From positions 1 to 23,693 of IMG/VR virus record IMGVR_UViG_3300020421_000145: 23,693 nucleotides of DNA; one strand, 5' to 3'. Shown piece after piece: positions 10,477-15,409 of this stretch (position 1 is the stretch's first letter; the number at the start of each line of letters is the position of its first letter). Origin of the DNA: a virus. The position numbers were made by a program, and so were the translations under genes. The notes beneath the pieces are model-generated. The model was not told the DNA's origin, did no database searches, and worked only from the letters and a program-made list of their open reading frames with translations.

Positions 10477-10503
10477 GGGAGGGCTTCGGTCCTCCCTTTT
10501 TTT
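10477..10503 (+). terminator. Strong intrinsic terminator after gp23 with UUCG tetraloop
   Basis: GGGAGG (10477-10482) pairs with CCTCCC (10491-10496). Inside, G-T and C-G pairs close a TTCG loop (c-UUCG-g), one of the most stable RNA tetraloops. Seven T residues follow (10497-10503). It lies 22 nt after the gp23 stop and ends the capsid transcript. Confidence 0.93.
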
Positions 10504-11052: not shown

Positions 11053-11499
11053 ATGATTGATTTGAAGCAGGTGCTCGAAGACTGGGCACAAGATAATGTT
11101 ATTAGTGAAACACAGCTTGATAAAAGTTCTAGAGATACACCCCTCTTACATTCCAAATACCTCGATAAACTTGCAAATGCAAAGCTGCTTTTGAAGCGAG
11201 CCGAGTTTGTGCAAAAGACTTTGCTTAAGCAGAAGTGGCTATACTATAATGGTAAGCTAGATCAAAGCAAGATTGAAGAGTTCGGTTGGGATCCAGATCC
11301 GTTTGACGGTCTTAAGATTCTAAAGGGTGAGATGGAATACTATTATGATGCTGATCCTGAGATTCAGAAGTCAGAAGAAAAGATTCAGTACTATAAGACG
11401 CTAGTAGAAACACTTAGTGAAATTGTAGATACAATTAAGTGGCGACATCAGACGATTGGAAATATTATTAAATGGAAGCAATTCGAGTCCGGAAACTAA
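11053..11499 (+). CDS. uvsY: Recombination mediator UvsY
   Basis: The 148-aa protein (T4 UvsY has 137 aa) loads the UvsX recombinase on gp32-coated single-stranded DNA during recombination-dependent replication. Visible family features are an N-terminal MIDLKQVLEDWAQDNVI helix, SKYLDKLANAKLLLKRAEF (T4 SKWLNKHSSIKKEMLRIEA), LYYNGKLD (T4 DYYSGRGD), and a C-terminal WRHQTIGNIIKWKQFESGN, comparable to the AIKHIQDMRAFEAG end of T4 UvsY. ATG 11053 follows the ribosome site TTGGAGTAT; the TTG within that site is in frame but unlikely to be the start. Its end overlaps the uvsW start by 28 nt. Confidence 0.9.
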   Translation: MIDLKQVLEDWAQDNVISETQLDKSSRDTPLLHSKYLDKLANAKLLLKRAEFVQKTLLKQKWLYYNGKLDQSKIEEFGWDPDPFDGLKILKGEMEYYYDADPEIQKSEEKIQYYKTLVETLSEIVDTIKWRHQTIGNIIKWKQFESGN

Positions 11500-12953
11500 A
11501 TCACGCCAATCTCCATATTGATTGTGATTTCGGTGCAGCACAAGAATTAAAAGAATTCTTTTCGTTTTACGTGCCGGGTTATAAGTTCATGCCCGCGTAC
11601 AGGCGACGTGTCTGGGATGGAAAGATTAGGTTATTTGATTCAAATACTGGTGAACTACCGGCTGGTCTAATATACCATCTTCTTAAATTCTGTGAAACAC
11701 GTCAATACAAGATTGATGCTGTACGTACTACCTATGGCCTACCATATTCTGAAGATAAAGTAGAGGCTAAAGATCTACTCAAGTTTATTGAGAAAATGAA
11801 TCTACCTTTTAAACTTCGTGACTATCAGTTTCTTGCGTGTATGGAAGGACTGAAGCGTAGAAGGTCTGTGCTTGTATCTCCTACTGGATCTGGTAAATCA
11901 CTTATCATCTATGCATTGCTTTCATATTTTCTTGGTGTACTGAGAGGTGATAGTGAAAAACGCGTTCTTGTGATTGTACCTACTACCTCACTCGTAGAAC
12001 AGATGACATCGGACTTTAATGATTATGGATGTCCTGATCAGTTAATACACAAGATCTATTCTGGTAAAGAAAAAGATCCGGGTGCACCGATTGTTATTAG
12101 TACATGGCAATCAATCTATAAGCTACCACGAGCATGGTTTGAGCAATTCGGCATGGTAGTCGGAGATGAGTGTCATGGATTTAAATCTAAATCTCTTATG
12201 CAAATCATGAATAAAGCAACTGAAGCAGAATACCGCTTTGGAACAACAGGAACATTAGACGGGACACAGACACATGAGCTTGTACTTCAAGGACTATTCG
12301 GAAAAATATATAAAGTTACCACTACTAAAGCTCTACAGGATAATGACACCTTGGCTCAACTGGACATCAAGAGAATCATTCTTGATTATGATGAAGAAAC
12401 CAGACGGGACTTTGGTAAGAAAACGTATCAGGAAGAAATTGAATGGATCGTGGGAAATGAAAGACGAAACAAATTCATAGCAAATCTGGCCAGCGATCAG
12501 GATGGTAACACCTTAGTGCTTTTCAACTACGTGGAGAAACACGGAAAGCCCTTGTTTGATCTTATAAATAATAAAGTAAAGGAAGGCAGAAAAGTTTTCT
12601 TTGTATCTGGAAGCGTACAGACATCGGATAGAGAAGCTATTCGTGGTATAGTGGAGAAACAACAAAATGCTATCATTGTCGCATCTTTGGGTACTTTTAG
12701 TACCGGTATTAATATTAGGAATCTACACAATATTGTCTTTGCGTCACCTTCAAAAAGCCAGATCAGAGTTCTTCAGTCAATTGGACGAGGATTAAGAAAG
12801 TCTGATAACGGTGAGTCGACTACTCTTTATGATATTATAGATAATATTAGTTATAATGAAAGAAAGAACTTTGCTACTCTACATTCGGAAGAACGTCACC
12901 GAATATATGAAAGAGAAAAGTTTAACAATAAAACTTACAGAGTGGAAATATGA
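11472..12953 (+). CDS. uvsW: ATP-dependent DNA/RNA helicase UvsW (superfamily 2)
   Basis: The 493-aa product unwinds branched DNA and R-loops and, in T4, shuts off origin-initiated replication. The N-terminal domain (1-110) contains FFSFYVPGYKFMPAYRRRVWDGKIRLFD, very close to the T4 FFSFEADGYRFNPRFRYGNWDGRIRLLD segment. Helicase motifs follow in order: Q-like LRDYQ (115-119), Walker A SPTGSGKS (136-143), DECH (232-235), GTTGTL (motif III), the TYQEEIEWIVGNERRNKFIA link shared with T4, FSTGINIRNLHN (motif V region) and QSIGRGLRK (motif VI). It overlaps the uvsY gene by 28 nt and the next gene by 4 nt (ATGA), so the three form one operon. Confidence 0.96.
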   Translation: MEAIRVRKLNHANLHIDCDFGAAQELKEFFSFYVPGYKFMPAYRRRVWDGKIRLFDSNTGELPAGLIYHLLKFCETRQYKIDAVRTTYGLPYSEDKVEAKDLLKFIEKMNLPFKLRDYQFLACMEGLKRRRSVLVSPTGSGKSLIIYALLSYFLGVLRGDSEKRVLVIVPTTSLVEQMTSDFNDYGCPDQLIHKIYSGKEKDPGAPIVISTWQSIYKLPRAWFEQFGMVVGDECHGFKSKSLMQIMNKATEAEYRFGTTGTLDGTQTHELVLQGLFGKIYKVTTTKALQDNDTLAQLDIKRIILDYDEETRRDFGKKTYQEEIEWIVGNERRNKFIANLASDQDGNTLVLFNYVEKHGKPLFDLINNKVKEGRKVFFVSGSVQTSDREAIRGIVEKQQNAIIVASLGTFSTGINIRNLHNIVFASPSKSQIRVLQSIGRGLRKSDNGESTTLYDIIDNISYNERKNFATLHSEERHRIYEREKFNNKTYRVEI

Positions 12954-13414
12954 AAGAACCTGCGATTAAACAATTTAAGTTAACTAACGACGATGAAATT
13001 GTATGTGAAGTGCTTGAATGGGATTCTGAAGATAACTCAGCGATTTTAGTTAGATGTCCACTAAGGATCGTACAAGGCGAAGATATGGAACGCGGTATTC
13101 GTTTCTATGCATTTCGACCTTGGATGGGATTCACCGAGGATCCTAAGATTCTTCACACAATCAACGCGGCACACGTTATAGGAGAGGTTACACCTTCTAA
13201 CGATCTTATCAAGCATTACGCGGGTACGATTATCAAACTCGAAAAGAATGCTAATAATAAGAAGCATGACTTCGATATGGATAAGCTTGAAAAGATGGAT
13301 GACGACGAGATGGAAGATTTTATACAATACCACTTAGAACAAGAAGACGAAGAAGTTGAAGAGGATCTGGGACAGAACGTTGTAAAGTTCAAACCTAAGG
13401 ATACTATGCACTAG
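12950..13414 (+). CDS. Conserved-looking small acidic protein, possible Sm-like domain
   Basis: The 154-aa product has no T4 counterpart that I recognise. The N-terminal 75 residues look like a beta barrel: FKLTNDDEIVCEVLEWDSED, then AILVRCPLRIVQ, then IRFYAFRPWMGFTED. The pattern of a strand with a polar turn followed by EIVCEVLE and then NSAILVRCPLRI resembles the Sm/LSm motif 1. Residues about 115-147 are strongly acidic (MDDDEMEDFIQYHLEQEDEEVEE). It starts within the uvsW stop (ATGA). An RNA-binding or transcription-linked role is inference only. The leftward promoter in the downstream gap would make RNA antisense to this gene. Confidence 0.75.
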   Translation: MKEPAIKQFKLTNDDEIVCEVLEWDSEDNSAILVRCPLRIVQGEDMERGIRFYAFRPWMGFTEDPKILHTINAAHVIGEVTPSNDLIKHYAGTIIKLEKNANNKKHDFDMDKLEKMDDDEMEDFIQYHLEQEDEEVEEDLGQNVVKFKPKDTMH

Positions 13415-13442
13415 TATATCCCTTCCCTGAAAACCATACTTT

Positions 13443-13471
13443 ATTATACCACCATTTCAATCAAATGTACA
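13443..13471 (-). promoter_or_regulatory. Leftward sigma70-like promoter, divergent from the gp55 promoter
   Basis: Read on the minus strand, the order is TGTACA (13466-13471 on +), a 17-nt spacer, and TATAAT (13443-13448), with an extended TGG before the -10. It matches the three rightward promoters of this window in every conserved position. No convincing minus-strand gene lies downstream. Transcription from about 13436 would run antisense into the preceding gene and uvsW. Confidence 0.6.
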
Positions 13472-13507
13472 CTCCTTTTTTTCGCACTCAATAACAAAAA
13501 ATAATAG

Positions 13508-13536
13508 TGTACAAATCCAACACACGATGGTATAAT
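13508..13536 (+). promoter_or_regulatory. Sigma70-like promoter for gp55
   Basis: TGTACA (13508-13513), 17-nt spacer, TATAAT (13531-13536) with extended -10 TGG. The start would be near 13543, ahead of the CGGAGT ribosome site (13553-13558). The -35 hexamer is part of AGTGTACA, which forms an inverted repeat with TGTACACT at 13466-13473. Confidence 0.8.
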
Positions 13537-13565
13537 AGTACTATATTTTGAACGGAGTAGACCTT

Positions 13566-14165
13566 ATGGCACGCCAAAAACGAGCAAGCATACATTATGT
13601 AAACAACGCTGATTTTTCTCAGGCTGTCGTAGAGTATGTAACTATCGTAAACAAAGCTCAAGCAGAAAACACAGAAATTCCAAAAGTACCTGATTATATT
13701 GCACAGTGCTTTCTTAGAATCTCTGAAGGATTGTCTCACAAATCTAATTTTATTCGATACACATATCGTGAAGAAATGGTTATGGACGCAGTTGAAAACT
13801 GTTTGAAAGCTATATTGAATTACGATATAGCAGCCGCAACAAGAACTGGTAAACCAAATGCATTTGCATACTTTACACAGATCACGTGGTATGCATTCCT
13901 ACGAAGAATCGCTAAAGAGAAAAAGCAACAAGACATTAAGATGAAATACCTAACCAATTCTGGTATTGAGAACTTTCTTACAACAGAAGAAGGTGATGAT
14001 CTAAGCCAGTATGTTGTTGGTCAATTTATCGATACACTCAAAGATCGTATTGATAAAGTAAGAACATTTGACGCTGAAGTAAAAGAATTTAGTAAAGTCG
14101 AAAAAATCAAGAAGAAGCGAGCAGTAACTGCAGATTCTGATTTGACGGAGTTCATGAATGAGTAA
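13566..14165 (+). CDS. 55: Late-transcription sigma factor gp55
   Basis: The 199-aa protein (T4 gp55 has 185 aa) is the distant sigma70 relative that directs host RNA polymerase to TATAAATA promoters, together with the gp45 clamp. The central region FIRYTYREEMVMDAVENCLKAILNY (about 75-99), then PNAFAYFTQITWYAFLRRIAKEKKQQD (about 107-133), is the sigma region 2-like core of the family. The basic C-terminal tail (KVEKIKKKRAV) is followed by DLTEFMNE, a possible clamp- or polymerase-contacting end. ATG 13566 follows CGGAGT. A TTG at 13548 is in frame but lies upstream of that ribosome site. It overlaps the next gene by 8 nt. Confidence 0.93.
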   Translation: MARQKRASIHYVNNADFSQAVVEYVTIVNKAQAENTEIPKVPDYIAQCFLRISEGLSHKSNFIRYTYREEMVMDAVENCLKAILNYDIAAATRTGKPNAFAYFTQITWYAFLRRIAKEKKQQDIKMKYLTNSGIENFLTTEEGDDLSQYVVGQFIDTLKDRIDKVRTFDAEVKEFSKVEKIKKKRAVTADSDLTEFMNE

Positions 14166-14370: not shown

Positions 14371-15409
14371 CACGCACTGTGGTATACGTAACTCTTCCGA
14401 AATCTTTCTCAAAAATTCAGCAGACTTTTATTCAAAAGTCTTTTTTCCTGAATGTGAAGAAAGAGGGATTACGCAAATCCTACACCTCGGGGATTATTAT
14501 GACCACAGGAAATTTGTAAATTTTAAAGCACTAAATCATAATCGTAAATCATTTCTTAACGAGATTCGTAAACGTGGTATGGCTATGGATATTATCCCAG
14601 GCAACCATGATACGTTCTATAAGAATACTAATGACTTAAACAGTCTAAAAGAACTGCTCGGCCATTTCATGAACGAGATTAATATCGTCATGGAGCCTAC
14701 GGTCATGGAATACGGGTCACTACGCATGGCTCTCCTCCCTTGGATTTGCAATGACAACTACGAAAAGTCTATGCAATTTATCCGTGACTGTAAGGCTGAT
14801 TGGCTGGGCGGCCATCTTGAACTAAGTGGATTCGAACTCATGCGTGGTGTCGAATCACATGGTGGTATGGATGCCAAACTATTTGATAAATTTGAGCTCG
14901 TACTTACTGGCCACTTTCATGCAGCATCACGTAGAGATAATATCTGGTACCTTGGTAGCCAAATGGAATTCTTCTGGTCTGATGCTCATGATCCTAAGTA
15001 CTTCCACATCATTGATACCGAAACTCGTGAAGTAGAAAAAATTCGTAATCCACACACTTTGTTTGAAAAAATAGTGTACAATGACGACGAAATGGATTAT
15101 AATAACTATAAGACGTCACACCTAACAAACAAATTTGTCAAGGTTGTCGTGGTAAATAAGTCAGACACTTTCTCATTTGATCGTTTCATCGATCGTATAC
15201 AGAATGAAGAAGTGTATGATTTGAAAATAGCAGAAAACTTTAATGAGTTTATTGGTGCCAACGTAGAAGATGAAGGCCTGCAAGTTGATGATACTCCTAA
15301 GCTAATGGACGACTACATCGACGGTGTCGACACTGATCTGGATAAAGATCGAATAAAAATCCAGATGCGTGAACTTATGACACATGCACAGGCTCTTGAG
15401 ATAGCATGA
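14348..15409 (+). CDS. 47: Recombination endonuclease subunit gp47 (Mre11/SbcD family)
   Basis: The 353-aa protein (T4 gp47 has 339 aa) is the nuclease half of the gp46/gp47 complex that resects DNA ends for recombination-dependent replication. All calcineurin-like phosphoesterase motifs are visible: NDTHCG (D8, H10), GDYYDHR (D49), GNHD (85-88), GGHLE (H156) and TGHFH (187-191). ATG 14348 is chosen because GAAGG lies 5 nt upstream and the protein then starts MKLAVLNDTH, as is usual for the family. It starts within the previous gene and overlaps the gp46 gene by ATGA, consistent with 1:1 coupling of the two subunits. Confidence 0.95.
   Translation: MKLAVLNDTHCGIRNSSEIFLKNSADFYSKVFFPECEERGITQILHLGDYYDHRKFVNFKALNHNRKSFLNEIRKRGMAMDIIPGNHDTFYKNTNDLNSLKELLGHFMNEINIVMEPTVMEYGSLRMALLPWICNDNYEKSMQFIRDCKADWLGGHLELSGFELMRGVESHGGMDAKLFDKFELVLTGHFHAASRRDNIWYLGSQMEFFWSDAHDPKYFHIIDTETREVEKIRNPHTLFEKIVYNDDEMDYNNYKTSHLTNKFVKVVVVNKSDTFSFDRFIDRIQNEEVYDLKIAENFNEFIGANVEDEGLQVDDTPKLMDDYIDGVDTDLDKDRIKIQMRELMTHAQALEIA

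Follow-up and report, generated by a model that had tools for sequence, protein, structure and literature searches.

The window analyzed here is a 23,693-nucleotide stretch of viral DNA (IMG/VR virus record IMGVR_UViG_3300020421_000145, positions 1 to 23,693) from a T4-like marine phage, whose nearest named gp55 relative is Phage C48C1, Kyanoviridae. Its neighboring genes of interest all run rightward and encode UvsY (phrog_231), a UvsW-like helicase, a phrog_471 protein of 154 amino acids (aa), and gp55 (phrog_234), the master switch for late transcription in T4-like phages. Long open reading frames (ORFs) cover 19.4 kb of the plus strand and 1.2 kb of the minus strand. Between the 154-aa gene and gp55 lies a pair of divergent promoter-like elements, one directed at gp55 and the other pointing leftward, with no leftward gene beyond it.

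The predicted leftward promoter reads TGTACA-17-TATAAT on the minus strand (13471 to 13443; GTGG precedes the -10) and the gp55 promoter reads TGTACA-17-TATAAT on the plus strand (13508-13536; ATGG precedes the -10), so that each strand has -35 and -10 hexamers at the 16-18 bp spacing of sigma70-type promoters. The preliminary description of this DNA had proposed that the arms of an inverted repeat, TGTACACT at 13466-13473 and AGTGTACA at 13506-13513, are the -35s of two opposed promoters with 17-nt spacers and TGG-TATAAT elements; arms, coordinates and elements all proved exact. The -10s are separate, 82 bp apart (13448 to 13531), and the predicted starts are ∼107 bp apart. T- and A-tracts in the spacer appear to be placed like the proximal UP-element A-tracts of both promoters, and A-tracts recur in relatives. 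A scan of the window with a generic sigma70 consensus returned 44 sites, against 37.6 ± 7.2 in shuffles, a count not above chance, and 8-bp arms built on TGTACA, itself a palindrome, count for little on their own (TGTACACT with one mismatch or fewer occurs at chance frequency). The argument is therefore made by comparison with relatives.

Loci encoding gp55 were gathered from viral contigs using five seed proteins, and from cultured phages; 243 unique upstream stretches were retained and 238 analyzed. The promoter matrix was trained solely on rightward gp55 promoters, with the threshold set so that 1% of shuffles pass. On the intergenic minus strand a leftward promoter was present in 91% of 109 loci of the window group, in 71% of the 55 loci of cyanophage type and in 97% of the 67 of Melnitz type. 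The corresponding figures are 1% for shuffles, as the threshold dictates, and 2-4% for stretches of the minus strand taken from neighboring genes. Relatives might have lost the leftward -10 while keeping the gp55 promoter, an outcome that the preliminary description had named as telling against it; this was not seen, and 71-97% of loci, depending on the group, retain the leftward promoter. Leftward and gp55 promoters have equal median scores in the window group. Scored with a matrix specific to the group, the leftward site (23.7 bits) ranks first among the promoters of the window, ahead of the gp55 promoter (22.8 bits), and no other minus-strand site exceeds 11 bits. Most strong promoters follow gene direction in three contigs from relatives (G001, G002 and G004, 98-123 kb), and in each the leftward site beside gp55 is the strongest opposite-strand site. 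The idea of a leftward promoter-like element without a leftward gene is thus supported, its conservation being that expected of a promoter. Conservation among relatives places the predicted promoter far beyond chance.

The distance between the two promoters is also constrained. Where both are strong, the divergent -35 start-to-start distances are mainly -10, -1, 9-12, 19-22, 29-32, 39-42, 49-51 and 59-62, near multiples of ∼10.25 bp, and this quantization places the predicted -35 sites on the same face of the helix. Conserved, and held at whole turns from the gp55 promoter, the leftward promoter appears to be genuine, of long standing and physically linked to the gp55 gene. We clustered loci by intergenic similarity at three levels and compared them with a jittered null. 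The mean resultant length at 10.5 bp was 0.73 for 118 clusters, 0.63 for 38 and 0.66 for 18, against null means of 0.09, 0.15 and 0.21 and null maxima of 0.26, 0.45 and 0.71; at the coarsest clustering (18) the 10.5-bp value is within the null range, though the best value on scanning, 0.74, lies above the highest of its own null, 0.62. The signal stays when only separations of at least 15 bp are taken (resultant 0.81 for 76 clusters, null maximum 0.38), so overlap palindromes are not the source of the phasing. The turn number appears to have changed at least 39 times on the gp55 tree, and 90% of 84 uniform clades fall within 2 bp of phase, a figure for which a binomial p is not to be read literally, since independence among the clades is incomplete and gp55 may be uncoupled from its promoter by recombination. 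The -35s keep phase more closely than the -10s do (0.813 versus 0.775), which points to the -35/upstream face. Most window-group members have four turns between the -35s, and natural relatives span spacings from -1 to +6 turns. Separate -10s are found in relatives as well, and cyanophages have overlapping arrangements (TTGACA-N4-TGTCAA in P-RSM4, Syn19, S-RIM2 and Syn9) with room for one polymerase at a time.

Table 1. Features of the divergent promoter pair and adjoining genes (window coordinates)
Feature	Coordinates	Strand	Remarks
UvsW-like helicase gene	11472..12953	+	farther down the leftward path
154-aa gene (phrog_471)	12950..13414	+	lies antisense on the predicted path of the leftward RNA
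Predicted start region and first transcribed bases of leftward RNA	13415..13442	-	start near 13436 by position
Leftward -10, TATAAT	13443..13448	-	TGG-type extension GTGG at 13449-13452; kept in relatives
Leftward -35, TGTACA	13466..13471	-	left arm of inverted repeat
Spacer between -35 hexamers, 36 bp	13472..13507		T-tract 13476-13482, A-tract 13496-13501
gp55 -35, TGTACA	13508..13513	+	right arm; start 42 bp (4 turns) from leftward -35
gp55 -10, TATAAT	13531..13536	+	ATGG extension
gp55 late sigma factor	13548..14165	+	ORF as listed; likely start ATG at 13567

Elsewhere in the window, a strong intrinsic terminator, GGGAGGGCTTCGGTCCTCCC-TTTTTTT, lies on the plus strand at 10477-10496, directly before the tail tube gene. 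Downstream of gp55, a promoter-like TGTACA-17-TATAAT occurs within gp47 (15075-15103, plus strand) and recurs in three relatives (G001 107486, G002 100977 and G004 80092); conservation of the protein sequence, or a promoter inside the gene, may account for it.

We considered the inverted repeat as an operator and rejected this, as its arms are merely two -35 hexamers (TGTACA, TTTACA, TATACA or TTGACA), arm sequence and spacing track these hexamers, and both vary between relatives. The preliminary view of the repeat as a symmetric element in itself is not supported.

The predicted start region carries further conservation. Cyanophages share AACnnTGTnAGGGTTnA beyond the leftward -10, and the G-rich GGGAAGGG in the start region of the window (complement of 13420-13427) is the putative counterpart of this start-site element. 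The composite of promoter and AACnnTGTnAGGGTTnA typically has one or two further copies per cyanophage genome. Three other copies viewed in context each precede ordinary rightward genes, and promoters with the shared element at 13316 and 48351 of KX349279 precede a cpeT gene and a small-ORF cluster; such promoters may define a small regulon. A reversed control pattern matched once across seven genomes and not at all in ten at two mismatches; at three mismatches it is as frequent as the pattern, and so only close matches count. Element copies are more alike within than between genomes (1.59 versus 3.51 mismatches, permutation p 5e-5, in a test that takes no account of genome relatedness). The shared composite makes the leftward site part of a small class of promoters, which is independent evidence of a working promoter. 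In the window group the leftward leader is G-rich, and G004, one of the relatives, has a similar leader after a promoter that precedes a transfer-messenger RNA (tmRNA; L370 13318-13586, minus strand). This tmRNA is alphaproteobacterial-type or permuted and hints at an alphaproteobacterial host. Beyond the first ∼25 transcribed bases the leftward sequence has no visible conservation.

A palindrome with a stem of at least 5 stands beside the leftward -10 in 29% of window-group loci, compared with 3.6% when shuffled. The predicted start lies within it, and most of it is therefore outside the leftward RNA; a hairpin at the 5' end of that RNA was rejected on this ground, and the palindrome could possibly form a hairpin in the 3' end of the rightward (late) mRNA. 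In the window the palindrome (13420-13442) is weak; in many window-group loci it is preceded by a C-rich tract, and its sequence changes.

A leftward gene or leader peptide was likewise rejected: antisense ORFs are no longer than controls (median 14 versus 11 codons; means 15.6 versus 16.2), and some that begin from the conserved leftward start end at once. No leftward terminator is conserved within 3 kb over 131 loci, and an Rfam search gave no credible match at the locus. The preliminary description had envisaged RNA antisense to the 154-aa gene. However, the adjacent left gene is of another family in 33 of 235 loci and the promoter persists in 24 of those 33, which makes a specific antisense target unlikely. 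It is possible that the leftward promoter regulates the late module.

We tentatively favor a coupled divergent pair of host-sigma70-type promoters, in which the leftward one would act mainly in cis on the gp55 promoter and the late module. Selection has preserved the core of the leftward promoter together with its first bases and the helix face that it occupies with respect to the gp55 promoter; what is transcribed has not been kept, so that a role in cis fits better than a product. The pair would stand where the late module, with the structural genes, uvsY and uvsW, meets the replication/gp55 module. The rightward promoter would make gp55, and RNA polymerase bound at or departing the leftward promoter would influence its firing, through mutual exclusion at overlapping sites and, at separations of 2-6 turns, through contact, supercoiling or A-tracts that both share upstream. 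Early leftward antisense transcription would enter whichever late gene adjoins and would help to silence the module until gp55 takes over. That both promoters fire, that they affect each other and in which direction, we infer from sequence. The ThnR-controlled divergent promoters PB and PC (PMC4834489) are likewise two and close, and their activities are reported to rise when they are together; unlike the present locus, that pair requires a LysR-type activator. A stronger version, which we hold to be doubtful, makes the whole-turn-spaced pair a physical timing device, a polymerase at the productless promoter controlling the timing of gp55 from the same helix face, and the spacing able to shift solely in steps of a full turn. 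Cyanomyoviruses are without MotA and AsiA, the T4 middle regulators (PMC2984593), and such a device could therefore matter for timing.

Several observations weigh against the coupled pair. The start-site element and its coherence within genomes suggest a trans factor, which coupling does not need, and polymerase-polymerase contact cannot account for phasing at turn numbers -1 to 1. Some loci are off-phase (residuals, 3-4 bp), some of the promoters called are questionable (e.g., L057, L222 and L294), and the mononucleotide-shuffle control for phasing was left with too few sites.

The leftward promoter could instead serve solely for early transcription against uvsW and the late module, keeping UvsW and structural proteins unmade early through transcriptional interference or an antisense RNA, its proximity to the gp55 promoter being incidental. 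The late module does lie leftward, where there is no leftward gene, UvsW of T4, which unwinds R-loops at origins, is made from a late promoter (PMC3016281), and antisense RNAs have been reported in cyanophages (PMC2984593, PMC10976474). One of these, CfrI of cyanophage S-PM2 (PMC2984593, PMC5931967), is like the RNA predicted here in being an antisense transcript of a Kyanoviridae phage, but belongs to the psbA locus, is ∼225 nt long and has demonstrated expression. A variable left neighbor is compatible with such interference, since it needs no fixed target. Helical phasing with the gp55 promoter is left unexplained, visible conservation stops after the first ∼25 transcribed bases, and on balance we think this account unlikely. 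We give little credence to a small regulatory RNA or tiny peptide made leftward, with the start-site palindrome as operator for a phage repressor or activator. The G-rich stretch resembles a ribosome site (GGAGGG-like), similar leaders in G002 run straight into genes, and both the coherence of the start-site element and the enrichment of the palindrome would suit an operator; the unremarkable antisense ORFs and the want of a conserved terminator or credible Rfam match at the locus speak against an RNA or peptide.

The preliminary description had also raised a replication origin primed by an R-loop. In the form weighed here, the leftward transcript, G-rich at its start, would form the R-loop and prime the leftward leading strand as at T4 oriF, possibly two-way with the rightward one. 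The site lies between uvsW and replication genes, the leftward RNA is the G-richer over its first 30 bases (0.32 versus 0.21), and the usual two to three element-bearing promoters per cyanophage genome are reminiscent of the multiple T4 origins. T4 oriF/ori(uvsY) (PMC3016281) is comparable in having a promoter close to uvsY/uvsW; that promoter is active ahead of the late phase, in a role independent of a gene product. However, on a comparison by sequence alone, the oriF hallmarks tested are absent. The MotA box TGCTT(T/C)A does not occur on the minus strand of 13431-13520, a -35 hexamer being present instead; judged by composition only, there is no AT-rich unwinding element (AT 0.63 over leftward +1 to +100 versus a locus mean of 0.65 in the window group); and GC skew goes with the direction of the genes, without changing over at gp55. 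The element's other copies lie directly upstream of ordinary genes. A T4-type origin is thus unsupported, and we consider an origin here improbable. Least credible of all is a functionless by-product, in which promoter symmetry causes spurious divergent initiation. Bidirectional promoters are common in bacteria (PMC12825309), and those of pseudo-symmetrical type in E. coli and further prokaryotes (PMC12825309, PMC10268837) are like the predicted pair in that divergent starts arise within a small region, where polymerases can exclude each other. That class, however, has overlapping -10s and starts 10-23 bp apart, whereas the -10s of the window pair are separate and the locus consists of two complete back-to-back promoters, one geneless, at helical-turn spacing, each possessing a -35 and a -10 of its own and conserved, in phase, among distant phages.

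A coupled pair would bear on how the switch to gp55 is timed in cyanophages without MotA and AsiA, for which a phased second promoter is a concrete, testable candidate. Marine T4-like phages from several hosts have retained this second promoter, and the range of spacings among them offers a natural experiment on the interaction of neighboring promoters, with the pair carried by the laboratory phage Syn9.
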